From Bacteroidales bacterium (GTDB lineage Bacteria; Bacteroidota; Bacteroidia; Bacteroidales; P3): a stretch of 40,026 nucleotides of DNA. Each line of letters starts with the position of its first letter. Positions within the stretch are counted from its first letter, which is position 1. Below, piece after piece: positions 2,417 through 15,409 of this stretch. The notes below the pieces were generated by a model. It worked only from the letters and a program-made list of their open reading frames with translations, ran no database searches and was not told the origin of the DNA. The DNA is taken from contig JAGCUU010000021.1 in NCBI GenBank assembly GCA_017962665.1, forward strand, positions 1 to 40,026. The letters are read 5' to 3'. The translations under genes were made by a program, and so were the position numbers.

Positions 2417-2447
2417 TTTGTCAATTCGATAATTATTTGTAACTTTG
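2417..2447 (+). promoter_or_regulatory. Bacteroidetes-type promoter for the 2616-13146 cluster
   Basis: TTTG at 2417-2420, a 19-bp spacer and TAACTTTG at 2440-2447 match the known Bacteroidetes sigma-A consensus (TTTG, 19-21 bp, TAnnTTTG). Transcription would begin near 2453, leaving an AT-rich leader of about 160 nt before the first start codon at 2616. No riboswitch-like fold was recognised in that leader. Confidence 0.75.
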
Positions 2448-2615
2448 CACTCGTTTTTAATAGACAAAAGAGGTTAATTCAAAATAGGATTTCTATAAAT
2501 TGCCCGTTTGATTTTTATATAGTCAAATATTTATTCTATAATATTTTGCCAATTGGGATTTTAAAAAAAACAATTAATATAACCCTCCAATAGTGTTTTA
2601 TAAAATATTTTAATT

Positions 2616-3587
2616 ATGTCAGAAATTCAAACAGCTAACTATCCATCCAGTGCTAAAGTGTTGGTTCGTAGTGAGAATATGAGTCGTACAGCCTTAGGAA
2701 TTGCCCACGCCTATATGCTAATCCACCCCGATTCGACGGTTGAGAGCCTCAACAAAGCATTTCCAAAAGATAAGTTCAACCAAGGCAGCCCCCTGTTCCT
2801 CGGTCCTGCTGAACGCAAGGAGTACATTGCCTCGCATAATAATGACGATAAGAGTCTTTGCACTAACTATTTTTATGAGGAGAAGAACGCAATGTTACAT
2901 CTTAAAGATGGTTCGGAGGTTGCTGTAATGCAGATGTGGACTGGTGACAAGTTCCCACTGTTGGTGGAATGGGCCAAAAAGTATGACATCTATGTCGCAG
3001 AGTTTACCAAAGGCGCACGCGGTAAGCTGGGTTTCTTCGAACTCGAATATCTTAACAACTGGAAACCAGCCGCAGAAAAGAAAGGTGGCTTGGCATGGTT
3101 GTGGATACTGTTGGGTCTCATACTTGCAGCTATCATTATCTTCTTGCTGTTGCGCTCGTGCAACAAGGAGCCCGAAACAATTTTGGTGCGCGATACTGTG
3201 ATACAGACCGTTGAGATACACGATACTTTATATATCCAACAGTTGGCTGAGATTGAGGATAACTTTAATGCTGCAGAATTCATGAAAGGCAAGGCCGACC
3301 TAAGCAGAGATGCTGAGTTCGTATTACACGACCTTGCAAAGCTTATGAATGATTATCCCGAATTGCGTCTTCGTATTGAAGGACACACTAGTGCAGAAGG
3401 TAATGCCGATCTGAATCAAAAACTCTCGGAGGCCCGTGCACAAGCTGCAGTCACTTTTCTCGTGGAACATGAAGGTATCTCTGCGGAGCGCCTTGAGGCT
3501 GCAGGTTTTGGCAGCAGCAAGCTGAAAAACGTTGATGATCCTATGGCTCCGGAGAACCGTCGTACCGAGTTTGAGATTATAAAGTAG
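2616..3587 (+). CDS. single-pass membrane protein with C-terminal OmpA domain
   Basis: 323 residues in three parts. Residues 1-155 form a soluble N-terminal region I do not recognise, with no signal peptide. Residues 159-179 are a clear transmembrane helix (AWLWILLGLILAAIIIFLLL) followed by Arg-Ser-Cys. Residues 220-322 are an OmpA/MotB-type peptidoglycan-binding domain with IEGHTSAEGN (254-263), NQKLSEARA (267-275) and ENRRTEF (313-319). The expected topology is N-terminus in the cytoplasm and OmpA domain in the periplasm holding peptidoglycan. It is the first gene after the cluster promoter and lies 25 nt before the next gene. The fusion of a cytoplasmic domain to an inner-membrane OmpA module could carry signals between cell wall and cytoplasm; that is inference. 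Confidence 0.88.
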   Translation: MSEIQTANYPSSAKVLVRSENMSRTALGIAHAYMLIHPDSTVESLNKAFPKDKFNQGSPLFLGPAERKEYIASHNNDDKSLCTNYFYEEKNAMLHLKDGSEVAVMQMWTGDKFPLLVEWAKKYDIYVAEFTKGARGKLGFFELEYLNNWKPAAEKKGGLAWLWILLGLILAAIIIFLLLRSCNKEPETILVRDTVIQTVEIHDTLYIQQLAEIEDNFNAAEFMKGKADLSRDAEFVLHDLAKLMNDYPELRLRIEGHTSAEGNADLNQKLSEARAQAAVTFLVEHEGISAERLEAAGFGSSKLKNVDDPMAPENRRTEFEIIK

Positions 3588-3612
3588 TTATTTTGTTCAA
3601 TAATACTCGACT

Positions 3613-3774
3613 ATGGCAACAACAAAGAAAACCACGACAAAAAAGGCTGTTGTGAAGAAAACCAAAGACGGCTCTGTCGATAAGCGTACCAAGGAGGGCA
3701 AGGCAATCTGTGCTCGTATGGCCAAAGCTCGCAAGGCTGCCGCCAAAGCTCGCAAACTGGCCAAGAAAAAATAA
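3613..3774 (+). CDS. tiny Lys-rich basic protein A
   Basis: A 53-residue open frame (ATG at 3613, TAA at 3772-3774), too short for most gene finders. It starts MATTKKTTTKKAVVKKTKDG and is nearly half Lys, Arg and Ala. Its core, TKDGSVDKRTKEGKAICARM followed by AKARKA, is repeated almost exactly in the next gene, which supports it being real, as does its position between two genes with 24-25 nt gaps. The composition resembles bacterial histone-H1-like or nucleoid-binding tails, so nucleic-acid or polyanion binding is plausible but unproven. No transmembrane or signal sequence is present. Confidence 0.75.
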   Translation: MATTKKTTTKKAVVKKTKDGSVDKRTKEGKAICARMAKARKAAAKARKLAKKK

Positions 3775-3798
3775 TGAACCTCTAATATTATTGTTATT

Positions 3799-3993
3799 AT
3801 GGCAGAGAAAAAAACAACTACAAAAAAATCCCCAGCCAAAAAGACTCCAGCAAAGAATACGTCTGTTAAGAAGACCAAAGACGGCAAAGTTGACAAACGT
3901 ACCAAGGAGGGCAAGGAAATATGCGCCCGTATGGCTAAAGCTCGCAAGGCCCAAGGTAGCCTGAAGAACCGTATAAAAAGACTGTTTAAATAA
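3799..3993 (+). CDS. tiny Lys-rich basic protein B (paralogue of A)
   Basis: 64 residues, beginning MAEKKTTTKKSPAKKTPAKN. It shares the core TKDGxVDKRTKEGKxICARMAKARKA with the upstream 53-residue protein and then diverges to a basic end (KNRIKRLFK). The conserved core in two neighbouring genes, with different flanking tails, indicates a gene duplication and selection on the core. A single Cys is conserved in the ICARM motif. The role is unknown; the strong positive charge suggests binding to DNA, RNA or another polyanion. It is followed 18 nt later by the TerB-like gene. Confidence 0.8.
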   Translation: MAEKKTTTKKSPAKKTPAKNTSVKKTKDGKVDKRTKEGKEICARMAKARKAQGSLKNRIKRLFK

Positions 3994-4011
3994 GAAAGGA
4001 GACCTTAAGAG

Positions 4012-4425
4012 ATGAAAACACGTATTGAAGATATAGCAACGATCATCGCCTCCGCTATCTGGGCTGACAACGTATATGACGAGGCCGAGAAGATTACCGT
4101 TGAGGAGATTGCCGACGCATTGGAACTGAACGAGGCCGCCTTCAAGAAAGCTGTCGATGCACAGTTGAAAGCCATGTCGAAGATGAGCGACAACCACGCC
4201 AACGCCGCCTTGATGGATGCCGCTGAAGCAGTGGACGACGAAGAGATAGGCATTGTATTTGAGGCTGCCATGCAGATGCTGCTGGCTGACGGGGAACTGA
4301 GTGTCTCCGAAGTGAGCAACCTGCTCGTCGTGGCCAACGCCCTCGGCATCGAGGAAGAGATGGCTATCTTGCTGCTGGCCGATATGGTTAAGACAGAGCC
4401 AGAATTGGCAATTGAAATAAAATAA
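4012..4425 (+). CDS. TerB-like all-helical protein
   Basis: 137 residues, acidic and predicted all-helical. Two halves each begin with an acidic helix start of the type ADNVYDEAEKITVEEIADAL (residues ~19-38) and ADGELSVSEVSNLLVVANAL (~90-109). This repeated D-x-x-x-[ST]-x-x-E pattern is the signature of the TerB fold (tellurite-resistance-associated, proposed metal-binding). TerB domains are known from stress and phage-response gene clusters in many bacteria, often next to membrane or C-terminal effector modules. A GGAG-type ribosome site (AGGAGA at about 3998-4003) precedes the start. The family assignment is from motif reading and is moderate. Confidence 0.65.
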   Translation: MKTRIEDIATIIASAIWADNVYDEAEKITVEEIADALELNEAAFKKAVDAQLKAMSKMSDNHANAALMDAAEAVDDEEIGIVFEAAMQMLLADGELSVSEVSNLLVVANALGIEEEMAILLLADMVKTEPELAIEIK

Positions 4426-4445
4426 TTCAACAAAACGTTATACTT

Positions 4446-4793
4446 ATGGAAATTAAAGTAGATGGACGCCTATTGGTGTCGACGCTCTGCGAGCGTTTCA
4501 AAGAAGAGTTTGGTGGCACGCTTCGCGTGTACCAAGGAAATAAACGCCTAACCGGTACCGAGAAGGTGAGCGAGATCGCCACCAAGACAGGCAGCTACGA
4601 GTGCCGTGGCAGCAAGACCGTCGGTGGTTTCGAGAAAGACATGATGGAGAACTTCGGCCTCAAAGTCCAGGTGGCTTCGGCTGACGACTGGGTGCTTGCT
4701 CTCGACGAGATGACCCTCGCCAAACTGCCCGAAATCCCCAAGAATGCCAAGAAGGCCGACATGGATGCCCTCAAGGCAAAATATGCAAAATAA
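4446..4793 (+). CDS. duplicated FG-module protein 1
   Basis: 115 residues with no family name that I recognise. It contains two copies of a ~26-residue module with pattern G-x3-V-x2-[LF]-x3-[FM]-x3-FG-x2-[LV]-x-V. Copy 1 is residues ~5-29 (DGRLLVSTLCERF then EEFGGTLRVY) and copy 2 is ~53-77 (RGSKTVGGFEKDM then ENFGLKVQVA). A SADDWVLALDEMTL segment follows, matching NADDSALADNSATL in the next gene. The alternating pattern suggests strand-helix-strand units, giving a small symmetric alpha/beta fold. The next two genes carry the same module, so this is a local expansion. It is cytoplasmic (no signal sequence). Confidence 0.8.
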   Translation: MEIKVDGRLLVSTLCERFKEEFGGTLRVYQGNKRLTGTEKVSEIATKTGSYECRGSKTVGGFEKDMMENFGLKVQVASADDWVLALDEMTLAKLPEIPKNAKKADMDALKAKYAK

Positions 4794-4845
4794 AACAAAC
4801 CTTTAATTAACCCAATTTATTAACCCCCAAAAAAAACAAAATATT

Positions 4846-5160
4846 ATGGCAGAAATAGCATTAAAAGGTGGCATGAAGGTGAAAACCCTCAAGGCTGATT
4901 TTAAAAAGGCTTTTGGTTCGACGCTCCGCGTGTACATGAGCCCCACTTGCAAAGGTCGCATGGCTGACGACGACGCTACCCTCGCTTCCATCCGCGCAAA
5001 AGACGCTAAAGGTGGAGAATTAAAGGTGGTCGGCCACATGCAGGTCGGCAACTTCGAAAAGAAGATTGCTGAGATGTACGGCATAGGCGTCCAAGTGGCA
5101 AACGCCGACGACAGCGCCCTCGCTGATAATAGTGCAACCCTTGTGGCTGCTGGCAAATAA
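4846..5160 (+). CDS. duplicated FG-module protein 2
   Basis: 104 residues, a clear paralogue of the upstream 115-residue protein. Module 1 spans residues ~7-30 (KGGMKVKTLKADF, KAFGSTLRVY) and module 2 ~62-85 (VGHMQVGNFEKKI, MYGIGVQVA). Between them lies ADDDATLASIRAKD, matching the DKTLASVRRAD linker of the third paralogue. After module 2 comes NADDSALADNSATL. I recall sequences of this kind in many bacterial genomes labelled hypothetical, but give no name. It ends just before a strong terminator at 5175-5214, so it may be the last gene of the short transcript from the cluster promoter. Confidence 0.8.
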   Translation: MAEIALKGGMKVKTLKADFKKAFGSTLRVYMSPTCKGRMADDDATLASIRAKDAKGGELKVVGHMQVGNFEKKIAEMYGIGVQVANADDSALADNSATLVAAGK

Positions 5161-5174
5161 TAAAAAAGCCAAAT

Positions 5175-5214
5175 AAATCCGGCGGACGGGGAGACCCTCC
5201 GCCGGATTTTATTT
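5175..5214 (+). terminator. internal rho-independent terminator or attenuator
   Basis: Left arm 5175-5185 (AAATCCGGCGG) pairs with 5199-5209 (CCGCCGGATTT), enclosing a short loop and followed by TTTTATTTTA. The stem is GC-rich and perfect. Only ~27 nt separate the end of the T-tract from the next start codon, too little room for a full promoter, so downstream genes probably depend on readthrough. Confidence 0.85.
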
Positions 5215-5241
5215 TATAAACCCCTTAAAAAAAAAACTAAT

Positions 5242-5862
5242 ATGGCAACAACCGTTAAGAAAACAACTACAAAAAAAACAACAACAAAGTCGGTCGCAAA
5301 GAAGACAACAACAGCTAAACCTGCTGCAAAGAAAACAACTACTGCAAAACCTGCTGCAAAGAAAACCACTACTGCAAAACCAGCAGCAAAGAAGACAACA
5401 ACTGCAAAACCTGCCGTAAAGAAAACCACAACAAAATCCGTGGCAAAGAAGACTGCACCGGTAAAGACCGCCGTCGAAATATCGGTGAACGGAAACAAGA
5501 AGATAGGTACTCTGATGAAGGAATTCAACAAACAGTTCCCCTATCTCCGTTTAGGCATCTTCTACAGCTATGCCCGTCAGGAAGTGGCGAAGGGTGGCAC
5601 TATATACAATATTGATAGAGACAAGACTCTTGCTTCTGTCCGCCGTGCCGATTCGGGTGGTGACATTTCCATCAGTGGAAACAAGAAAATCAAGACACTG
5701 GAGAAGGAGTTTGACAAAGTTTTCGGTCTCTATGTCCAGGTTTGCTACACCGATAAAGATGGTGGTCGCTACTACACCAATGGCTACAAAGACGATTTGA
5801 CTCTCTCCGCCTTCAACAAGAAGTGCGAAGCTGACGGCTGCAAAAAAGGCGAGTGGAAATAA
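5242..5862 (+). CDS. H1-like Lys/Thr/Ala tail fused to a duplicated FG-module domain
   Basis: 206 residues. Residues 1-73 are a low-complexity basic tail built from AKKTTTAKPA decapeptides, very like the tails of bacterial histone-H1-like proteins (HctB, AlgP type). Residues ~79-206 hold two FG modules: ~81-108 (SVNGNKKIGTLMKEFNKQF) and ~144-168 (ISGNKKIKTLEKEFDKVFG, LYVQV), with the shared DKTLASVRRAD linker. It therefore joins the basic-tail theme of the small Lys-rich genes to the module of the two preceding genes. A plausible reading is a nucleic-acid-anchored version of the module; that is inference. It is the first gene after the internal terminator. Confidence 0.82.
   Translation: MATTVKKTTTKKTTTKSVAKKTTTAKPAAKKTTTAKPAAKKTTTAKPAAKKTTTAKPAVKKTTTKSVAKKTAPVKTAVEISVNGNKKIGTLMKEFNKQFPYLRLGIFYSYARQEVAKGGTIYNIDRDKTLASVRRADSGGDISISGNKKIKTLEKEFDKVFGLYVQVCYTDKDGGRYYTNGYKDDLTLSAFNKKCEADGCKKGEWK
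5302..5421 (+). repeat. 30-bp coding tandem repeat, four copies
   Basis: Four in-frame 30-bp units encode KTTTAKPAAK-type decapeptides (residues 21-60 of the gene at 5242). The units differ at synonymous positions (for example act/aca for Thr and cct/cca for Pro), so the peptide is kept while the DNA has drifted. Copy number may vary by slippage between strains. Confidence 0.8.
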
Positions 5863-5880
5863 TTATAAATACAACGATTA

Positions 5881-6243
5881 ATGGCTTACAAAAAATCAGC
5901 AATCAACGGTGAGTACATGCTGGGTGTACTCGACAGCGGCAGCATTGAGGTGTACCGCGTGTACGACAACACTAAAGGCGCCCTGCGCGAGATAGCAGAG
6001 CTGGAAAACTTCGAGTACGACCCCAACTGGAACACCCGCCAGTTCGGCGACGGAAAAGAGGCTTCGGTGGGTTGCTATAACATCTACCTTCGTGACAGCG
6101 GCACCGTGGAGGTGTATCGCACCTACGACAACGTGAAAGGTGCTCTGCGCGAGGTGGCCGAGAAAGAAGGCTTCGTGTTTGACCCCGCATGGAACACCCG
6201 CCAGTTCGGGAGCAAGCTTATCGACTTCCTTACCACGAAGTAA
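5881..6243 (+). CDS. small protein of two ~45-residue repeats (WNTRQFG protein)
   Basis: 120 residues made of two tandem copies of one unit. Repeat 1 (~12-56) and repeat 2 (~66-110) share DSGxxEVYRxYDNxKGALRE, then a D-P-x-W-N-T-R-Q-F-G ending. Aromatic and charged residues are conserved between the copies, indicating two copies of a small fold or an intramolecular dimer. No signal or membrane segment is seen. I do not recognise the family. It is 18 nt after the H1-tail fusion gene and 12 nt before the Cys/His repeat gene, so it belongs to the same transcript. Confidence 0.78.
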   Translation: MAYKKSAINGEYMLGVLDSGSIEVYRVYDNTKGALREIAELENFEYDPNWNTRQFGDGKEASVGCYNIYLRDSGTVEVYRTYDNVKGALREVAEKEGFVFDPAWNTRQFGSKLIDFLTTK

Positions 6244-6255
6244 AGTTTATAGGTT

Positions 6256-7077
6256 ATGGATCATAAACACAAAATCAAAACAGATGGCAATGTCACCTAC
6301 TGCACTGTGTGTGGTAAGAAATCTCCGTCAAACTATGATACATGCTATGGCTATGACAACAAGCACTCTTTCAAGTTGCAGCCCAATGGCGATATAATTT
6401 GTACAAAATGTGGAAAAGGTTCTTCATCTTCGTACAATAGTTGTTATGGTGAGAATAATAAACATCATTACAAAAAATTGAGCAATGGCGATGTGATATG
6501 TACGAAATGCGGGAGGAGTGAAAGCAAAGCTTATTCCAGTTGTTACGGAGAAGACAAGGGACACAATTACGATATTGACAAGGACGGTAATATCGTATGC
6601 AAGAAATGTGGTAAAGACACTGGCGGCGTATTCGATGTCTGTAATCCTGCCAACAAACCCAAAAGAGAGAAGAAATCCCCAACATACGCAAGCTATGTCG
6701 CCAAAAGCATTGTTATGCTTGATCCCCATAAAGTGGAATTTTTAGCATCGTTGGTATATATCAAGGGCGGTTGGAGCCGTACATGTCTCAGAGGTAGTAG
6801 CGGATTCGATAAAGAGCTTTTCCAGAACCTTCGCGAAAATATAAAAGAGGCCTATGAGGCATTACAGTCGCGCTCAATGGACTATGTGTTGTCTCACATG
6901 TACGATTCATTCAAAAAAGCAGAAGACGATACCGATAGAACGAGACTGTTGTCGTGGGCGGCAGAGTTGGTTTCTGACCGTGTAAAACGACTTATTATTT
7001 CAAAAGCCCTGCACTATAAAGATCCTGTTTGGGATACTTTGGACGAACATCTGAAGTACTTCGCTATTCATAAATAA
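6256..7077 (+). CDS. protein with four Cys/His (zinc-ribbon-like) repeats and a helical C-terminal domain
   Basis: 273 residues. The N-terminal 130 residues hold four repeats of about 33 residues with spacing C-x2-C-x10-C-x6-H: Cys16/19/30-His37, Cys49/52/63-His70, Cys82/85/96-His103 and Cys115/118/129 (the last lacks an obvious His). Each has a CTKCG-type knuckle and a SCYG turn and is preceded by NGDxxC. Such ligand sets usually bind zinc structurally and often mediate nucleic-acid or protein contacts. A basic linker (PKREKK, ~134-140) leads to a helical domain to residue 273 that I cannot name. The gene is AT-rich. A fourth knuckle without its His could be a degenerate or three-ligand site. 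Confidence 0.8.
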   Translation: MDHKHKIKTDGNVTYCTVCGKKSPSNYDTCYGYDNKHSFKLQPNGDIICTKCGKGSSSSYNSCYGENNKHHYKKLSNGDVICTKCGRSESKAYSSCYGEDKGHNYDIDKDGNIVCKKCGKDTGGVFDVCNPANKPKREKKSPTYASYVAKSIVMLDPHKVEFLASLVYIKGGWSRTCLRGSSGFDKELFQNLRENIKEAYEALQSRSMDYVLSHMYDSFKKAEDDTDRTRLLSWAAELVSDRVKRLIISKALHYKDPVWDTLDEHLKYFAIHK

Positions 7078-7109
7078 TGGGATGGTTCTATTAATTAAAA
7101 AAAAATATC

Positions 7110-7370
7110 ATGAGTGTAGAATACTATCGTAAACGCCTTATCGACCTCAGGGCCGATGTCGCCAAAGAGCGCGAGGCAAAGAAAAAAGACAACGAACGTT
7201 ATGCCGGCTACATCAAGAGTGCCAGCAGTACCAGCAGCAAGGCCAGCTACCGCAAGCAGAAGATTGATCACGCTGCCAGTCACGACCGACGCATAGAAAG
7301 TCTGAAACGCGAAATTGAAAGAGCTAAAGAAAGCTTGGCTCGTGAGCGGGCAGCGGCAAAACGCAAATAG
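7110..7370 (+). CDS. small charged coiled-coil protein
   Basis: 86 residues, rich in Lys, Arg, Glu and Ala. Residues ~5-35 and ~55-86 have heptad-like helical patterns (RKRLIDLRADVAKEREAKKK; then SLKREIERAKESLARERAAA), separated by a Ser-rich hinge (SASSTSSKAS). This suggests a helical hairpin. No signal or membrane segment is present. It lies 3 nt before the channel gene, close enough for translational coupling, and might act as a soluble partner of the channel; that is inference from position only. Confidence 0.72.
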   Translation: MSVEYYRKRLIDLRADVAKEREAKKKDNERYAGYIKSASSTSSKASYRKQKIDHAASHDRRIESLKREIERAKESLARERAAAKRK

Positions 7371-7373
7371 TAT

Positions 7374-9098
7374 ATGAAAAAAATAAAGCTTGAGCTTGCG
7401 CGGGTGTTCGACGACAACCTGCACACCAAACAATGGCATAACTGGGTTGACTACACCATCATAGGACTTATCATAGTCAGTACGGTGGAGGTGTTCCTCA
7501 GTACTTTTGATGGCATCGCCCAACGTTATGGCGCTTGGTTGCAGGCTGTAGACATCTTTACCACGGTCTTTTTTACCATTGAGGTCTCATTGCGTATCTG
7601 GTGTGCCGACTTGATTGATCCTAAATATAAAGGATTCTGGGGCCGTGTGCGATATTGTCTGTCGTTTTACGGACTTATAGATTTCCTGTCCACATACACA
7701 TTCTATATCGCTTTCCTGGTGCCGATTCCGTACGTGTTGCTCAAAGGACTGCGAATAGCTCGTCTGATGCGTGTGTTCCGCTATATGAAGGCGTTTAGGC
7801 TGTTGTCGGCAGCCATTAGTTCTAAGAAACGTGAACTTTGGGTGTCGCTGCAGTTCCTCGGTATCGTGACACTCATCTTGTCCTTTATACTTTTCTTTGT
7901 TGAGCATGCAGTGCAGCCGGAGGTGTACGACAATGGCTGGACGTCTGTTGCTTGGGCTTTCGCACAGTATATCGGCGATCCGGGTGGCTTTGCCGACCAG
8001 CCTCCAATCACTCTGGCAGGTCAGATAATCGCTTGTATTGTGGGTTTGCTGGGCATAGCCATCTTCGCAGTGCCAGCAGGCTTGGTGGGCTCGGCCTTCA
8101 GTGACGTAATGGATGATGAGAAGAAAGCTCAAGAACATAAAGAATTTGCATTGGCTATCAATGAAATGATGCTTGTAAAAAGCATAAAGCGTGAAGGTCT
8201 TTTCTGGCCTGCTAAAAATATTAGCTTTGGCGATTTGAAGCTGAATTTGAGTCTGACGGAGGAGGAGGTCCTGAAATCTGTTGATGCTTCCAATAACTTG
8301 CGTATTAAGAATTTGGCATCGGCAGTACTGGATGGCCCTAAAAACGATATGATGGTTGTCAATCAGTTCTTCGTCAACGAAGAATATGGCAGCCATATTG
8401 AACGTGGATCCAGTGTCACCATCGTTAATCCTCTTGGTGTGGGCGATAATGGGTTGAGCTTCTTTGACTGGCACATTGCTCAGCTGGGCGGATTCAACTA
8501 TGTTGCCAACGAGAAATTCTCGCGGCAAATATCAGACAGAAGTAAACGCTATAACTTTTACTCTGTTGACGATGAGACCGAAGGCAACAGCACGTTCCAG
8601 TCTTTTGTCAATGACATCGTCGCCAAACGTGGCAAAGGTGATTGGATCGTTGTCATTGCGGGTGAACAGATCGTCAAGAACAAGACTCATCTGCACTTTG
8701 AATTTGGAGGGGAAAAAGGGGAGGAACGCTTTGATTTCGAAGGCGGCATAGCCCCTGACCGCGAAATGGTGAAGATCTTGTTTGACGATATGCAGAAAAC
8801 TATGGAACAAAAAGCCGGTCTCGTCGTCGATGCCCACAAGGTACAGCCAAAACTGGCCCCTCAGAACATAGCACGATACCTGCAGGCAAGAACAGAGGCG
8901 AATGTGCTACTGCTTACTGTGTCTTATAAACTAATGGTATTCTATAATGAGGTGCATAGCGCAATAGTGAATATTGCCGAAGTGCTGAACCGTAACCTCG
9001 AGAACATGAAGCCACACGAATTGCACAAAGAGGAATACACGGTTCGTCCAATAAACTCGGACTATTGGAAAAAACTTTATTTTGTCACTGAAGACTAA
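7374..9098 (+). CDS. voltage-sensor-type ion channel with atypical pore and large cytoplasmic domain
   Basis: 574 residues. Six membrane segments fit the voltage-gated cation channel plan: S1 ~25-43, S2 ~58-77, S3 ~97-115, S4 ~122-144 with charges every third residue (R127, R130, R133, R136, K139, R142), S5 ~155-178 and S6 ~216-242 (LLGIAIFAVPAG). The pore loop (~189-214) reads AWAFAQYIGDPGGFADQPP instead of the potassium-filter TVGYGD. The remaining ~330 residues are a cytoplasmic domain I cannot name, containing a GDWIVVIAGEQIV strand near 422-434 and a helical end. It is tightly spaced with both neighbours (3 nt each side). The channel fold is well supported; ion selectivity is not predictable. 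Confidence 0.85.
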   Translation: MKKIKLELARVFDDNLHTKQWHNWVDYTIIGLIIVSTVEVFLSTFDGIAQRYGAWLQAVDIFTTVFFTIEVSLRIWCADLIDPKYKGFWGRVRYCLSFYGLIDFLSTYTFYIAFLVPIPYVLLKGLRIARLMRVFRYMKAFRLLSAAISSKKRELWVSLQFLGIVTLILSFILFFVEHAVQPEVYDNGWTSVAWAFAQYIGDPGGFADQPPITLAGQIIACIVGLLGIAIFAVPAGLVGSAFSDVMDDEKKAQEHKEFALAINEMMLVKSIKREGLFWPAKNISFGDLKLNLSLTEEEVLKSVDASNNLRIKNLASAVLDGPKNDMMVVNQFFVNEEYGSHIERGSSVTIVNPLGVGDNGLSFFDWHIAQLGGFNYVANEKFSRQISDRSKRYNFYSVDDETEGNSTFQSFVNDIVAKRGKGDWIVVIAGEQIVKNKTHLHFEFGGEKGEERFDFEGGIAPDREMVKILFDDMQKTMEQKAGLVVDAHKVQPKLAPQNIARYLQARTEANVLLLTVSYKLMVFYNEVHSAIVNIAEVLNRNLENMKPHELHKEEYTVRPINSDYWKKLYFVTED

Positions 9099-9101
9099 CC
9101 T

Positions 9102-9866
9102 ATGAGATTATTTAAATCCGGAGATAAGAAAAGAGTCTCTCGCTGGTGGATTGATCTGGCTATCAATCTTGTGGTTACGCTAATAGCATTTACACTTTCT
9201 CTGTTTGCCTCTGAAAGGAGTAAAATTAATGCGAAAAAGGCAACGGCATGGAATGTGGCACAGGTCACGCTCAGTAATATAGATGAACTCATTAACAACT
9301 ACGAGGTTGTGACTACCTATTACGATGATTTCCGTGACCAATACAACCTTATCAAGGAATATTATAAAAGAAATGAACGAGTTCCGGACTCTACCTGTAA
9401 CGAATTTGTGGACTATATTGAAGGGTGGGATGTTTTTGCAACCAACAGGTCGCCGGAAATGACTTTCAACACGACTTTTGAGTTGTGGGACTATCTTGAA
9501 AACATACCGTTGATTCGTCGTATCGGCAACTGCTATGCCTACAGTAATGCTTTTCAGGAACTCTATAACCGAGACCTGCAATTGATTGCAAATCTTTCGT
9601 TGTCAGGGCAGCTTGACAAACTGCTTGATCCTCACCAGAAACTGCATGCCATTATGAACCATATACCATTCCGTAACTACATGGAACGCAGTGGTGCCAC
9701 TTCGTCGGCATACCATAGTATGATTGAACGAATGAAGATTATGAACAATCAAAATAAAATTGACATGGGGGTAAGCGATAAGGATCTCGATGATTTGATA
9801 GCACCACTCCATTGGGCTGCAGGAGAAGACGAAGACTGTATCTTTATTGTAGGTCCATCATTATAG
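9102..9866 (+). CDS. membrane-anchored protein of unknown function
   Basis: 254 residues. A basic start (KSGDKKRVSR) precedes one transmembrane helix at ~17-36 (IDLAINLVVTLIAFTLSLF). The rest is a long helical region with many Asn, Asp and Tyr residues. The layout of a short N-terminal anchor followed by a helical body resembles small Bacteroidetes membrane proteins, but I cannot assign a family. It starts 3 nt after the channel stop codon, so co-translation is likely and the two products may associate in the membrane. The sequence is AT-rich, similar to its neighbours. Confidence 0.75.
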   Translation: MRLFKSGDKKRVSRWWIDLAINLVVTLIAFTLSLFASERSKINAKKATAWNVAQVTLSNIDELINNYEVVTTYYDDFRDQYNLIKEYYKRNERVPDSTCNEFVDYIEGWDVFATNRSPEMTFNTTFELWDYLENIPLIRRIGNCYAYSNAFQELYNRDLQLIANLSLSGQLDKLLDPHQKLHAIMNHIPFRNYMERSGATSSAYHSMIERMKIMNNQNKIDMGVSDKDLDDLIAPLHWAAGEDEDCIFIVGPSL

Positions 9867-9936
9867 GTAAAGGTTAAAGTTTATGGTTTAACGGTTAATG
9901 ATTAGTTCTTGCTAAAAATCAATGAAATAACTATTT

Positions 9937-12900
9937 ATGAGGACTATAAATGTTTTTTTGGCATCGTCAGACGAACTTAAGGATGAACGAATAGAGTTTG
10001 GCAACCTGATACGGCAACTTGATGATATTTTCCTCAAAGAACGAGGAATACATATTAAATTGTTGGTATGGGAGGATATGGATCCCTGTTATAACAACTG
10101 CCGTAAACAGGATGAATACAATGCATGGATACGGGATAGTCAGATTTTCGTGGCTTTGTTTTACACCCATGCAGGCCAATATACACTGGAGGAGTTTGAG
10201 GTGGCAAAAACCGAGAGTCTTCGACGAAAGGAGCCAAAGCTGTTTATCTGTTGTAGGGAGCCGAAGAATGACGAGGTGGAGGAGAAGGACCTGACTGCAT
10301 TCAAGCAAGAGTTGGAGAAGAAACTTGGACATTTCCCGTTGAAGTATACAACAACGGACAAGTTACACCATGATTTTACCATGTTTTTCCTACGTTTGAC
10401 TATGGGATCCCTTGATGCGTTGAAAATTGAGAATGGAAAGGTGATGCTCAGTTCATTTATAGTGGCGAATATGGACAATCTTCCATTTGCGTCGGGTAAT
10501 GTCAGCTATCAAGAAATAAAGCAGGATATTTGTAAAAAGACGGCAGATTTGGAGATGTTGAGGGCTGCGATGCAACAGTCTCCAGGATTGGAAGGTTTGT
10601 ATCAGAATACCATCAAAGAACTAAACGCAAAAAAAGAGATGTATGCCCAGCTGCAGCAGGCGCTGTTGGCCACCGCCAAGCGTGTCTCTGAGATGCAAAT
10701 GGAAAATGTCGGCAGTGAACTGCGTAGAGCCGTTGAAGCATTTGAAAGTGGGCATATAGAGGCTGCCAACGCCATACTTGACGGTATCGAACTTGAAGCC
10801 AAACGGCACGAGGTCCAGCTGGACACAAACAGAGAATTGGTCCATCAGGACATCGAGGCTTTTTTGCTTCAGGCAAAGACCATCATGGCTGATGCAAAAA
10901 TTCCTATCGAAACGAGAATAGAACGAGTGACTGCAAAATATGCCGATGCTGACAGACTGGCGGAAAAGAGTGCATGGAATAGTGAAAAATATGCTGACCT
11001 ATTATGCGACTATGCCATCTTTATGTATGATTATGCCTTCTATGAAGAGGCTTTGGAAATCATTCAGAGACAGATGGCATTGACAACAGACAAGGTGAAA
11101 TCATATAATATCAAGGGAAAAATACTATTCCGTCTTGACAGATACCAGGATGCATTAGAGATATTCAAAGAAGCCTTGAGACTGCTGAAGGAAAATGATT
11201 CAGCAGACCAGTACATGATAGGCTATACATATAATAATATTGGCCAGGTGCTCATCAGAATAGGAGAGTATGAGAATGCAATGGAGCAGGCAGAGAATGC
11301 GCTTAAAACCAACGAGACAGAAGGTGAAGGGGAGTCTTCGAACTTTGCAAAATCATACGAGAACATAGCAAACGGATTGCTTTGGTCTCAAGGGAGAGAA
11401 GAGGAGGCACTTGAAATATTTAACAAGACGCTTGAAATAGAGAGTCGGATTTATGGAGAAGAATCAAAAGAGGTCGCAGTGGTGCATCGACATATAGGAG
11501 ATGTCTATAGATGCAAATCTGACGACAACAAAGCATTGGACCATTACAAAACAGCATTGTCAATATTCGAAAAAACATTAGGAGAAAGGAATCCCGAGAC
11601 AGGACTCACATACGGATGTATAGGCGTCTCTTACATGAACCGGCATCGATACAAAGAGGCATTGGAAAATACACTTAAAGGTTTGAAAATAAGAGAAGAG
11701 ACTCTTGGGGCGGATAATACCAATATGGCAGAATCATACTATTGGCTCGGAGAGATCTATTCGAAAATGAGTGAATTGCAGAATTACGAGACAGCGCTAA
11801 ACTACTACAGCAAGGCAAAGGATATTAGAATAAGAAAATATGGGCTGTCACACCACGATACACTTGCAGTAGAATATGCTATTGCCAGAGTATTTATCAA
11901 ACAAGGTGAAAAAGCGAAAGCTGTGGAGTATTTCAGTGACTTTGTCGAGGCACTTGAAAAGGAGAAAACTGGTGAGAAAACCTTGGTACTTGCATATTAT
12001 TATTTAGGAGTTATTTACGGGTCTGTCGGTGAATACGACAAATCAATTTACAGCCTTGAGGTATCATTAAAACTATCCAAAACAGAAGACTACATTCGGG
12101 GATACATCCATTTGTATATAGCCTCCATCTTCAAGTTAAAGGGAGATTATTCAAGCTTGATAAATCACACAGTCAACGCATTGTCGATATTGGAGAAAAT
12201 AAAAGGGAAAGAAGACAACGATGTCGCATACCTGCGTTTCCAAATAGGAGAGATATACGAGAAGATGAGCGATTATGACCATGCGATAGAATATTACAAA
12301 TTAATTTTGCAAGATGGATTTAATGATACCGAAGATTTTAGCACAGCTGGAATCTATTACCATCTTGGGATGGTGTATTATTCTATAGAGAATTACCCAC
12401 AGGCAATTGACTATTATAATAAGGCATTGGAGTGGGTGAATAAGCACGAGATAAATGATGTCAGTATAGCCATTATATTATTCTATATAGGATTGACATA
12501 TTTCAATCAGAAGTCATATCCTGAAGCATTAGAGTGCATGCTCAAAGCAGAAAAAGCGGAAGAAGAGACCTGCATAATAGATTCAATCTATTTTATTATT
12601 GCCAATATTTATAATATCCAAAACGACCTGATACATGCTCAGGAATATTATATTAAGTCACTCCAGCACAAAGAGAAAATGTTGGGAACAACACATCCTG
12701 ACGTAGTCAATCTATATAGAACTATCGGATTGCTATATTGTACTATGGAAAAATATCCTGAATCGATGGAGTATCTTGAAAAACTGTTGAAATCATATAA
12801 GGACTATGAAAGTGGTTCAGAACTGGATGATTCTACGATATTGTTGTACATAGATGCAATTGGCACAATATACTATAATAATGGGGACTACAGAAATGCA

Positions 12901-13146
12901 CTTTATTATTATTACAAATGCATGGAGATAAGAGAGAAAATGTATGGGGTTGATGATATTGAGACGGCAGGAACATACGTTAATTATGGTGCATCATGTT
13001 GTATGAACGGCAGTTATATTACTGCCTTGGAATACTTTAATAAGGCAAAAGAGGTCTTTCATGAGAAACTTGGAGCAACGGCACCGGAAACACAAAACGC
13101 ACAGAAGTGGATAGAAATAATAACTCCCCTTATCCGCAACAATTAA
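9937..13146 (+). CDS. DUF4062 domain followed by TPR array
   Basis: 1069 residues. Residues 1-~150 match the DUF4062 pattern: an IxVFLASSDELKDER start, IRDSQIFVALFYTHAGQYT, then EEFEVA and a KLFICCRE strand. DUF4062 is a Rossmann-like TIR/SEFIR-related module commonly placed at the N-terminus of STAND-type sensors. A coiled-coil linker (~190-300) precedes roughly 15-20 tetratricopeptide repeats of 34-42 residues running to the C-terminus, many of the YxxALxYYxKALxI type with repeat lengths like kinesin-light-chain TPRs. No NTPase P-loop is seen, so it is DUF4062-TPR without a STAND core. A 70-nt AT-rich gap with GGTTAA-like repeats separates it from the previous gene. A sensor or scaffold role is likely. 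Confidence 0.85.
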   Translation: MRTINVFLASSDELKDERIEFGNLIRQLDDIFLKERGIHIKLLVWEDMDPCYNNCRKQDEYNAWIRDSQIFVALFYTHAGQYTLEEFEVAKTESLRRKEPKLFICCREPKNDEVEEKDLTAFKQELEKKLGHFPLKYTTTDKLHHDFTMFFLRLTMGSLDALKIENGKVMLSSFIVANMDNLPFASGNVSYQEIKQDICKKTADLEMLRAAMQQSPGLEGLYQNTIKELNAKKEMYAQLQQALLATAKRVSEMQMENVGSELRRAVEAFESGHIEAANAILDGIELEAKRHEVQLDTNRELVHQDIEAFLLQAKTIMADAKIPIETRIERVTAKYADADRLAEKSAWNSEKYADLLCDYAIFMYDYAFYEEALEIIQRQMALTTDKVKSYNIKGKILFRLDRYQDALEIFKEALRLLKENDSADQYMIGYTYNNIGQVLIRIGEYENAMEQAENALKTNETEGEGESSNFAKSYENIANGLLWSQGREEEALEIFNKTLEIESRIYGEESKEVAVVHRHIGDVYRCKSDDNKALDHYKTALSIFEKTLGERNPETGLTYGCIGVSYMNRHRYKEALENTLKGLKIREETLGADNTNMAESYYWLGEIYSKMSELQNYETALNYYSKAKDIRIRKYGLSHHDTLAVEYAIARVFIKQGEKAKAVEYFSDFVEALEKEKTGEKTLVLAYYYLGVIYGSVGEYDKSIYSLEVSLKLSKTEDYIRGYIHLYIASIFKLKGDYSSLINHTVNALSILEKIKGKEDNDVAYLRFQIGEIYEKMSDYDHAIEYYKLILQDGFNDTEDFSTAGIYYHLGMVYYSIENYPQAIDYYNKALEWVNKHEINDVSIAIILFYIGLTYFNQKSYPEALECMLKAEKAEEETCIIDSIYFIIANIYNIQNDLIHAQEYYIKSLQHKEKMLGTTHPDVVNLYRTIGLLYCTMEKYPESMEYLEKLLKSYKDYESGSELDDSTILLYIDAIGTIYYNNGDYRNALYYYYKCMEIREKMYGVDDIETAGTYVNYGASCCMNGSYITALEYFNKAKEVFHEKLGATAPETQNAQKWIEIITPLIRNN

Positions 13147-13150
13147 CCTA

Positions 13151-15409
13151 ATGGAACAAACTAATTCCTTTGACTGTATCATCGTTCGCGATGCGACGGA
13201 GAATAACCTGAAGCACGTCACGGTCCGCATTCCCAAAGGGAAAATCACGGTGGTGACGGGTGTGTCGGGGTCGGGCAAGTCGTCACTGGTACTGGACACC
13301 ATCGCCGCCAAGTCGCGTCGCGAACTCAACGACACCTTCCCCTCCTTCACGCAGCAGTACCTTCCCAAATACGGTCGTCCACATGTGGGCGACATCGAAA
13401 ACCTGCCCATCGCCATCGTCATTGAACAACGCAAACCGGCCTCCAACTCGCGCTCCACGGTGGGTACCTATACCGACATTTACGCTCTGCTGCGCCTGCT
13501 TTTCTCGCGAATAGGAAAACCTTTCGTGGGCTACAGCGACGCCTTCTCGTTCAACCACCCATCAGGCTCCTGTCCGCGATGCGGAGGGTTGGGTGAGATA
13601 CGCGAGCTTGACATTCACAAGTTGGTGGACTTCGACAAGTCGCTCAACGACGAGGACACCATTCATTACATCGCCTTCGGAAAAGGCGGTTGGCGTTGGA
13701 TACGCTATGCCCATAGTGGTCTCTTCGATCTCGACAAGAAAATCAAGGACTACTCGCCAGAGGAGCTCGACCTTTTCCTCAACTCGCCACAAATCAGGCT
13801 GAAGAACCCGCCCTCGAACTGGCCGAAGACAGCCAAATACGAGGGCCTGATTCCACGCATGTATCGAAGTATCATTAACTCGGAGGAAGGTTTGCTTCAC
13901 GCCGCCGTGCTAAACCCGATGCTGCGGATGGGCATCTGTCCCGACTGTGGCGGCACGCGACTCAACGAGAAGATACGCTCCTGCAAGATTTTGGGACTCA
14001 ATATTGCCGATGTCACCGCAATGAGTATCAGCGATGCGAGAAAATGGATGGAGACTGTCGACAACCCATTGGCGGAGGACATCAAGCATGCCACCCTTGA
14101 ACGGCTTGCAGCACTGGAGGAGATAGGACTTGGCTACCTCACCCTCGATCGCGCCATCGGTACCCTCTCGGGCGGCGAGGCCCAGCGCTGCAAGATTGCC
14201 AAATACATCAACTCGCCGCTGTCGGATGTGATGTACATCCTCGATGAGCCCAGCGTGGGCCTCCACAACCACGATATCCTGCTGATGCAGAAGTCGGTGC
14301 AGAAACTGAAAAACCACGGAAATACCGTCATCCTTGTAGAACACCACAAGGAGATGATTAAGATTGCAGACCATATTATCGACATGGGACCTGGTGCCGG
14401 CATGAAAGGCGGCGAGATTGTCTTTGAGGGCAGTTACGAAGAACTGCTGCTGAGTCATACGCTTACGGGTACCATGCTCAGCGCAACGAGTGCCATCAAA
14501 GAGACGGTGCGGACACCTAAGGTATTTTTCAAGATTGAGAACGCCACATTGCACAACCTCAAAGACCTGAGTGTAAACCTTCCCTTAGGCGTGATGTGCG
14601 GCATCGCCGGTGTGGCAGGTTCGGGCAAGAGCTCGCTGATGGAATGCTTTAGGAATGCTTGGCCACATCCGGAGGAGATAGTTTACATCAGTCAGAAGAA
14701 CATAGGCATCAGCCTGCGTTCCACTCCAGCCACCTATCTGGACGTGGCCGATGATATTCGCAAACTCTTCGCCAAGACCAACAAGACCAAATCCGACCTC
14801 TTCTCTTTCAACGGCAAAGGAGGATGTCCTGTCTGTCAAGGTAAGGGTGTTATCGTCAACGACATGGCCTTCATGGATGCCATCGAGACCACCTGCGAGG
14901 CCTGTGGTGGGTTGCGCTATTCACCCGAGGTGCTCTCCTACAAGGTATTAGGACTCAATATCGCCGAGGTGATGAATCTAACCGCCAACAAAGCTTCCGA
15001 GCTGTTCGCCGGCACGGTGATAGCTGAAAAACTGGAGCCACTGCGCAAAGTCGGCTTGGGGTATCTGCATCTGAACCAGTCGCTTTCGACCCTCTCGGGC
15101 GGCGAGCTGCAACGCATCAAGCTGGCCTCCTATCTGCGTGACGAGAGCAAAATCTTCATAATGGATGAGCCTTCTGACGGCCTCCATGCGAGCGACATCA
15201 GGCGTATACTCGACCTCTTTGATACCATGGTGGAGGCAGGCAACACCATCTTCCTCATCGAGCACAACATCGAGATGCTGAAAGCCTGCGACTACCTCGT
15301 TGAGCTTGGCCCCGGAGGTGGCGCAATGGGGGGAGATGTCATTTTCACCGGGACACCCAAGGCAATGTCGGAAAGTTCTGTTTCCGTCACAGGACCCTAT
15401 CTGCGGTGA
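13151..15409 (+). CDS. UvrA-family ATPase, short (UvrA2-like) form
   Basis: 752 residues against ~940 for canonical UvrA, the length of UvrA2/drug-resistance-type proteins that lack the UvrB-binding insertion. Two ABC ATPase halves are present: Walker A GVSGSGKSS (37-45) and GVAGSGKSS (second half), two LSGGE signatures and two Walker B/DEPS motifs. Zinc-binding pairs CPRCGG (141-146), CPDCGG and CPVCQG mark the UvrA zinc modules. UvrA2 proteins bind DNA and give tolerance to some DNA-damaging compounds. The start codon lies 4 nt after the DUF4062-TPR stop codon, so the two are likely co-translated. Its GC content and codon use are clearly higher than the upstream cluster, suggesting a different history. 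Confidence 0.92.
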   Translation: MEQTNSFDCIIVRDATENNLKHVTVRIPKGKITVVTGVSGSGKSSLVLDTIAAKSRRELNDTFPSFTQQYLPKYGRPHVGDIENLPIAIVIEQRKPASNSRSTVGTYTDIYALLRLLFSRIGKPFVGYSDAFSFNHPSGSCPRCGGLGEIRELDIHKLVDFDKSLNDEDTIHYIAFGKGGWRWIRYAHSGLFDLDKKIKDYSPEELDLFLNSPQIRLKNPPSNWPKTAKYEGLIPRMYRSIINSEEGLLHAAVLNPMLRMGICPDCGGTRLNEKIRSCKILGLNIADVTAMSISDARKWMETVDNPLAEDIKHATLERLAALEEIGLGYLTLDRAIGTLSGGEAQRCKIAKYINSPLSDVMYILDEPSVGLHNHDILLMQKSVQKLKNHGNTVILVEHHKEMIKIADHIIDMGPGAGMKGGEIVFEGSYEELLLSHTLTGTMLSATSAIKETVRTPKVFFKIENATLHNLKDLSVNLPLGVMCGIAGVAGSGKSSLMECFRNAWPHPEEIVYISQKNIGISLRSTPATYLDVADDIRKLFAKTNKTKSDLFSFNGKGGCPVCQGKGVIVNDMAFMDAIETTCEACGGLRYSPEVLSYKVLGLNIAEVMNLTANKASELFAGTVIAEKLEPLRKVGLGYLHLNQSLSTLSGGELQRIKLASYLRDESKIFIMDEPSDGLHASDIRRILDLFDTMVEAGNTIFLIEHNIEMLKACDYLVELGPGGGAMGGDVIFTGTPKAMSESSVSVTGPYLR

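Follow-up and report, generated by a model that had tools for sequence, protein, structure and literature searches.

The 40,026-nt contig JAGCUU010000021.1 of a Bacteroidales bacterium (GCA_017962665.1; draft genome of 1.88 Mb, 76.6% complete), referred to in full length as the window, carries a run of co-directional genes, which we compared with those of other Bacteroidales. The first part of the run (positions 2616 to 9098) encodes an OmpA-type envelope anchor, Lys-rich peptides, a TerB protein, FG proteins, the repeat protein RepY, a small charged protein (g10) and an ion channel. According to sequence comparison, these core genes are a recurring set in many Bacteroidales, usually with the channel in last position. 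We see about an even chance that they constitute a modular, envelope-anchored conflict system, probably directed against phages, with exchangeable enzymes.

The original prediction, made from the letters of the window, described a cluster of twelve genes behind one perfect promoter, ending with a DUF4062-TPR protein. The run is indeed co-directional, with intergenic gaps of 3 to 81 nt, but it comprises 13 open reading frames (ORFs; 2616 to 13146, all on the plus strand), two of them Lys-rich, and it continues 4 nt past the last one (g13) into a UvrA-like gene (g14). Because ORF calling relied on a simple longest-ORF script, small genes may be missed or spurious. Pfam matches were judged against the cut-off of each family. 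The predicted identities of OmpA (60.6 bits; cut-off, 27.2), TerB (26.5 bits; cut-off, 24.4) and the channel (Ion_trans, 68.3 bits; cut-off, 25) were confirmed, but DUF4062 was below its cut-off (18.3 versus 24.7 bits). FG1, FG2, RepY, g10, g12 and the cytoplasmic 1N domain of the anchor matched no family above cut-off. We conclude that the block is real, but that its borders need shifting, since the core has to be separated from g12 and g13, which look like cargo when loci are compared.

Co-occurrence was analyzed in 149 genomes of the family, using the channel as a query and profiles for FG, 1N and g10. FG was detected in 25 genomes (67 places), 1N in 21 (several matches being weak) and g10 in 21 (23 places). 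All 21 g10 genomes were among the 25 FG genomes (Fisher test, 6.5e-22), and each of the 23 g10 copies was located 283 to 4367 nt from an FG gene. A long channel, with a match beyond the pore domain, showed a patchy distribution and was present in 16 genomes, a count by judgement that leaves out G028 and G136, which have short fragments only. Channel and FG were found together in 15 genomes, the channel alone in 1 and FG alone in 10 (3.3e-13), and 42 of the 48 FG places in channel genomes were within 15 kb of the channel. These P values overstate the evidence, because related genomes were treated as independent and phylogeny was ignored. Nevertheless, the core co-occurs above chance, and the scattering of homologues in unrelated contexts, named in the original prediction as an argument against a system, was not observed for it.

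A scan of named genomes by channel alignment yielded 170 relatives, mostly from ruminant-gut Bacteroidales and including Paludibacteraceae, Bacteroidaceae, Muribaculaceae, Alistipes and two Porphyromonas uenonis isolates. Loci were counted in the best 80 of the 170; they were read up to 10 kb from the channel, many being shortened by contig ends, nearly all genomes are metagenome assembled, and the labels come from profiles iterated on the same loci. FG was present in 55 loci, g10 in 50, 1N in 41, the OmpA part in 32, RepY in 23, TerB in 17, the Lys-rich peptides in 8 and the N half of the Cys/His-rich protein g9 in 1. The numbers for small genes are lower bounds, because the ORF picker missed the window's own g10, TerB and Lys-rich ORFs. 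No locus contained g12, g13 or the C half of g9. Thus, of the proposed twelve-gene unit, the core recurs but these parts do not.

Gene order was scored only where both genes were on the plus strand. The channel was preceded by the anchor in 32/32 loci, by FG in 53/53, by g10 in 49/49, by TerB in 15/15 and by RepY in 13/14, and the anchor preceded g10 in all 26 scorable loci. In P. uenonis 60-3 (L131), the order is anchor, Lys-rich, TerB, FG, two unlabeled genes, RepY, g10, one other gene and channel. Twelve additional stretches from the family (L134 to L145), mostly with FG and without a long channel, harbor the same families in other combinations; in L135 and L137, a short channel-like ORF follows g10. 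The co-occurrence and the channel-last order in tens of genomes from several families contradict the view that unrelated genes came to be juxtaposed on one transcript by chance. An internal hairpin (Table 1) and the purely local occurrence of g12, g13, g14 and half of g9 would fit such a juxtaposition, which is possible for g12 to g14 but, as an explanation of the block, very improbable.

The modules of the core recombine. We found the fusions FG-1N-OmpA (L080), RepY-1N-OmpA (L105, L107 and L112) and FG-TerB-TerB (L084), and FG-RepY was present inside longer proteins (L063, L070 and L092). Moreover, 1N is located at the end of proteins of approximately 580 to 590 amino acids (aa) belonging to a KAP cluster, in which KAP was confirmed for L133 and L118. 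Locus L118 contains, on one strand, genes for a GIY-YIG protein with a weaker 1N-like end, an FGE protein, a SIR2 protein, an LRR/TerB-like protein ending in 1N, FG, KAP-1N and the channel; the label LRR/TerB-like, as well as the Lys-rich and TerB-like parts of the FGE protein, was assigned by eye. In the homologous L043, a single ORF on the opposite strand precedes FG. In PADLOC, the GIY-YIG protein of L118 matched PD-T4-3 (3.3e-33) and its KAP protein matched PifA (9.3e-30), while its SIR2 and LRR-like proteins had no match at 1e-5. Outside the operon, nine 1N-like places were read in the family and six of the proteins were scanned: one GIY-YIG and one HSDR_N protein were above cut-off, two HSDR_N-type proteins (one with DUF4357) were below it, and two were matchless. 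The 1N-like ends on GIY-YIG and HSDR_N-type proteins suggest that the cytoplasmic domain of the anchor has a partly nuclease-linked background.

Searched by sequence against solved structures, FG and 1N had no relative at a useful E value, and in a structure search with a model of FG-1N-OmpA, the matches were taken up by the OmpA domain. FG is predicted to contain the strand-helix-strand element twice, which would fit a ferredoxin-like fold. FG1 shares 97.4% protein identity with its counterparts in two other species, from which it differs by synonymous changes in 33 and 38 of 115 codons; this indicates strong purifying selection. Among 395 genomes of the phylum, 6, including that of the window, had an FG match at an E value of ≤1e-8. 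In L195, from a genome of another class, the match is near a 1N protein (1N E value, 8.4e-30).

Next to the core, the loci contain enzymes that differ from case to case. In the 80 loci, the region bounded by the outermost core genes contained 235 non-core ORFs of at least 90 aa, which formed 75 clusters, and one representative of each was scanned. The Pfam matches comprised 63 families, and the first 25 of them included pyroglutamyl peptidase, KAP NTPase, GIY-YIG, PvuRts1I-like, DUF2779, AAA, FGE-sulfatase and LRR. The PADLOC matches (25 listed of 135 families) included mREase_II, a methyl-directed restriction enzyme (4.7e-80), UzuA (1.4e-65), PD-T4-3 (4.5e-44; 2 members) and PifA (1.8e-33). 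An AAA protein matching AriA was not counted as PARIS, since the match is of a generic AAA/PtuA type. The earlier statement that no nuclease is present is therefore correct for the window's copy, but other loci carry GIY-YIG, PvuRts1I-like, KAP/PifA-like or SIR2 proteins. When same-strand clusters were counted in 81 loci, a C15-type peptidase (PF01470, 4.2e-70) was found in 48, a Ser/Thr kinase (F7; PF00069, 3.4e-18) in 23, an M20-like enzyme (PF01546, 1.4e-4, below cut-off) in 21, a putative regulator (F12) in 14 and a KAP-type protein in 11. The proteins of the window's block have no Pfam match to any of these five types. KAP proteins are also present in L138 and in L141, whose genome lacks a g10 match. 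In L035 (12522 to 14523), and also in L138, L143 and L144, a Ser/Thr kinase gene is divergent from a gene for a putative regulator of approximately 190 aa; no such pair was seen in the window's block.

In the window, the block is preceded by etfA and followed by a patatin gene. In genome G045, etfA and patatin are approximately 190 nt apart, and because they are nearly adjacent there, the block with the UvrA-like gene (approximately 2417 to 15409) is an insertion relative to G045. Patatin is located approximately 0.8 kb after etfA in G180 and approximately 2.4 kb after it in G160. Of 44 stretches downstream of etfA, 42 were used (two were too short); patatin was present in 3 of them, and the other 39 vary. 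The site 3' of etfBA (2213 to 2416 in the window) is variable within the genus. PADLOC analysis of ten chosen proteins from six of the 42 regions gave matches for eight; among them, SspB, SspC and SspD came from one genome, the methylase and restriction subunits of a type I system from a second and a Snf2-type helicase from a third. With the core co-occurring, the channel last and defense genes at the etfA site in some relatives, the original suggestion of an unnamed multigene system combining an envelope-anchored protein with a channel was supported.

The interpretation as a conflict system is based on the recurrent core order, the co-occurrence of g10 and FG, the recombining modules, the defense-type cargo, the variable etfA site and the patchiness. 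More specifically, and tentatively, we propose an immune apparatus that has no name yet, in which a peptidoglycan-tethered transmembrane sensor, an FG/TerB/RepY scaffold, a channel gated by its hydrolase-fold domain and module-bearing cargo enzymes would act together. The OmpA domain of the anchor would bind peptidoglycan, and a disturbance of the wall would be relayed to the cytoplasm via 1N. TerB, FG and RepY would form a scaffold at which enzymes dock, some of them by their own 1N copies. As the end response, the channel in the inner membrane would open, gated by a ligand or partner at the amidohydrolase-like domain, and a locus-specific enzyme, in the window perhaps g12, g13 and the UvrA-like protein, would add to the response.

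Several observations weigh against a conflict system. No phage phenotype is known. The order of the adaptors varies (anchor before FG in 22/28, FG before g10 in 37/42, TerB before FG in 9/13 and RepY before g10 in 8/11 loci), and g10 comes first in the channel-less loci L139 and L142, so that the core gene order is not universal. FG as a homotypic adaptor was rejected, because, in loci with several FG copies, the nearest relative of a module was found within its own locus in only 4 of 93 cases. The 75 accessory proteins matched 135 PADLOC families versus 45 for 75 flanking controls, but the flanks match too (AbiEi and DndH among them) and one generic AAA protein alone matches 57 families at 1e-5; this enrichment is therefore weak and only suggestive. 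The proteins at the etfA site were hand-picked as promising, and of the ten, two were matchless and two matched only weakly. Furthermore, no place covering 80% of the channel was found in 72,556 plasmid and 50,697 phage records (E values, 1e-20 and 1e-10), where the matches were ion transporters aligning to the pore part only. Transfer by plasmid or phage was accordingly discarded.

Finally, FG-like proteins occur beside universal-stress-like proteins in other Bacteroidota: four genomes of the same class (L196 to L199) encode single FG-like proteins in this position, with CBS-domain-like neighbors in L198 and L199 and a P-type-ATPase-like neighbor in L196, all of these neighbors being recognized by eye. 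FG may be an old stress-linked family. It is mainly for this reason that we retain a second explanation, an envelope or ion homeostasis stress system, with the anchor as a sensor of wall stress, TerB and FG as stress-response parts, the channel as a regulator of ion flux and defense genes as hitchhikers at a variable site. The classical association of TerB with tellurite and other stress, the purifying selection on FG1 and the clusters F7 and F12 are also in line with it. However, the patchy presence within one genus, the defense genes at the insertion site in some relatives and the 1N module on nuclease and KAP proteins argue against it, and we regard it as rather unlikely.

The membrane part of the channel is KCNQ/Kv-like (phmmer, 4.9e-19 to KCNQ3). 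The selectivity filter is Y(I/V/L)GDPG in 84 of 86 channels (YIGDPG in the window), and G-Y/F-G-D was present in none of the 86. Residues 302 to 544 have a predicted fold like that of N-formylglutamate amidohydrolase and poly-gamma-glutamate hydrolase; the C-terminal domain had no sequence match to those hydrolase families and no useful one among solved structures. HGG-E is the zinc-binding catalytic motif of this fold. In the 19 of 56 rows inspected by eye, the corresponding position showed no His (e.g., PLGVGD, TSGYSE and PSSLVD), 6 of these rows being without a pattern match. The domain is possibly catalytically dead. A metabolic or signaling unit for glutamyl peptides, in which a glutamyl ligand of the channel would be produced or removed by a pyroglutamyl peptidase (C15) and an M20/M42-like aminopeptidase, would be consistent with this fold and with the C15-type and M20-like clusters at or beside the channel. 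Since a common fold shows no function, the channel domain lacks a sequence match to these hydrolases and the window's block has no match to either enzyme, we consider such a unit improbable.

Other channel-related genes were seen in the same material. A second long channel in the window's own genome (L049, G000:C19, 7869 to 10561) is beside a 313-aa FtsZ/tubulin-like protein (by eye), on a contig without an FG match. In the channel loci L041 (5725 to 7010) and L046 (10955 to 12748), a short peptide gene is located beside an ATP-grasp-like protein, and in L046 also beside a GNAT-like one, as in graspetide clusters (all by eye). L139 (11126 to 14098), a locus without a long channel, encodes a 990-aa protein with N-terminal Ion_trans and approximately 750 residues without a Pfam match.

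In PADLOC 2.0.0, the ten block proteins other than K1, K2 and g10 were scanned. The best match of the anchor was ZorB (3e-6; residues 251 to 322 only), TerB partially matched PDC-S48 (3.2e-7), and FG1, FG2, RepY, the channel and g12 had no match at an E value of 0.1. No named system with this core was among the matches of the ten proteins, and no paper on this gene set was recognized among titles and abstract beginnings of the open-access literature, subscription papers being outside this scope. In its logic, the block may resemble Zorya, in that an ion path in the inner membrane would act together with a protein that has one putative helix (by eye) and an OmpA-type peptidoglycan domain facing the periplasm, and with exchangeable cytoplasmic effectors. 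According to PMC11890865, H141 and S143 of ZorB II are needed for peptidoglycan binding and defense; the GHTS motif of the anchor looks like this region, with the residues matched tentatively by sequence. In contrast to Zorya, no MotA-like ZorA match was found in the ten proteins, and the channel is of the Ion_trans, KCNQ/Kv-like type. Furthermore, the block has the cytoplasmic 1N domain, FG, TerB, RepY and g10 in addition, and the anchor matches ZorB in only a portion of its OmpA domain.

Conflict systems coupled to effector-associated domains (EADs; VMAP and iSTAND ternary systems) are similar in that their core proteins share small modules with enzymes encoded in the same operon, and transmembrane-OmpA parts occur in a subset of the iSTAND systems as well (PMC7159879). 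Such module sharing was found here for 1N, which the OmpA anchor has in common with KAP proteins from loci of this kind, but the FG copies within a locus mostly have their closest relatives elsewhere. No VMAP, iSTAND, vWA or MoxR family was among the Pfam matches listed for the window's block (for g13, 25 of 30 families). With Ter systems the block shares the TerB domain; no TerC or TerD match was found in it, or in other loci as far as the first 25 of their 63 Pfam families are concerned. The channel shares the Ion_trans membrane part with voltage-gated KCNQ/Kv K+ channels but differs from them in lacking a GYGD-type filter and in having a different cytoplasmic domain.

Two genes downstream of the core, g12 and the DUF4062-like g13, were rejected as system parts. 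The proposed role of the DUF4062-TPR protein as a sensor was not supported, since only 1 of the 11 copies of the g13 N-terminal part in the 149 genomes, that of the window, is on a contig with FG. The UvrA-like g14 was also rejected as a partner: it has strong matches in FG-free genomes, and no etfA is beside it in the loci of five relatives (L153 to L157).

Regarding transcription, the perfect promoter of the original prediction was found as an exact match, the sole one in the block, and is preceded by a terminator-like hairpin (2234 to 2268); in the window, the pattern has 4 matches versus 0.84 expected from shuffles. The strong hairpin inside the block suggests that "one promoter, one unit" may hold only in part. 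A simple terminator scan, which gave 13 sites versus 11.9 in shuffles, did not list this hairpin. For FG genes with a gap of at least 35 nt, a putative terminator followed in 12 of 55 cases, compared with 55 of 506 for other genes and none of 22 for anchors, a mild difference. Sigma-70-like sites numbered 46 in the block versus 23 in shuffles, with one perfect match at 11080; since promoters of Bacteroidales differ from the sigma-70 type, these sites were not used. The features are compiled in Table 1.

Table 1. Features of the block and of the adjoining UvrA-like gene in the window
Feature	Position	Strand	Properties
Bacteroidetes-type promoter	2417-2447	+	TTTG-N19-TAACTTTG
g1, anchor (core)	2616-3587	+	Cytoplasmic 1N, residues ~13-145; one hydrophobic helix (by eye); OmpA/Pal-type domain, 222-309
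g2, Lys-rich peptide K1	3613-3774	+	53 aa; K profile; no Pfam match
g3, Lys-rich peptide K2	3799-3993	+	64 aa; K profile; HC2 E 0.049, below cut-off
g4, TerB protein (core)	4012-4425	+	PF05099
g5, FG1 (core)	4446-4793	+	FG family
g6, FG2 (core)	4846-5160	+	FG family; no useful PDB sequence match
Internal hairpin, possible terminator	5175-5209	+	U-rich tail, UAUUUUAU; after FG2; -27.2 kcal/mol, z -5.7
g7, Lys/Ala-rich H1-like tail fused to FG module	5242-5862	+	HC2/H1-like below cut-off; FG profile match
g8, RepY (recurring)	5881-6243	+	Two copies of one module
g9, Cys/His-rich repeat protein	6256-7077	+	Zinc-ribbon matches all below cut-off
g10, core signature gene	7110-7370	+	86-aa charged protein
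g11, ion channel (core)	7374-9098	+	C-terminal amidohydrolase-like domain
g12, probable membrane protein (by eye), putative cargo	9102-9866	+	No Pfam match
g13, DUF4062-like + TPR, putative cargo	9937-13146	+	PF13271 E 0.0028, below cut-off; TPR
g14, UvrA-like ABC ATPase, putative cargo	13151-15409	+	Same insertion; TIGR00630 1.5e-202, 675.4 bits, below cut-off 729.8

Four of the recurring families (FG, g10, RepY and 1N) have no Pfam model that matches above cut-off. If the set is an immune system, it would join Zorya as a further envelope-tethered design, one in which a voltage-channel-like pore takes the place of a MotA-type motor, in Bacteroidales of rumen and gut. If it is a stress system, it would provide a first handle on the FG proteins, which are sparse across Bacteroidota. 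Under either reading, a channel that combines a non-GYGD filter with an amidohydrolase-fold domain is open to electrophysiology and ligand-binding studies.

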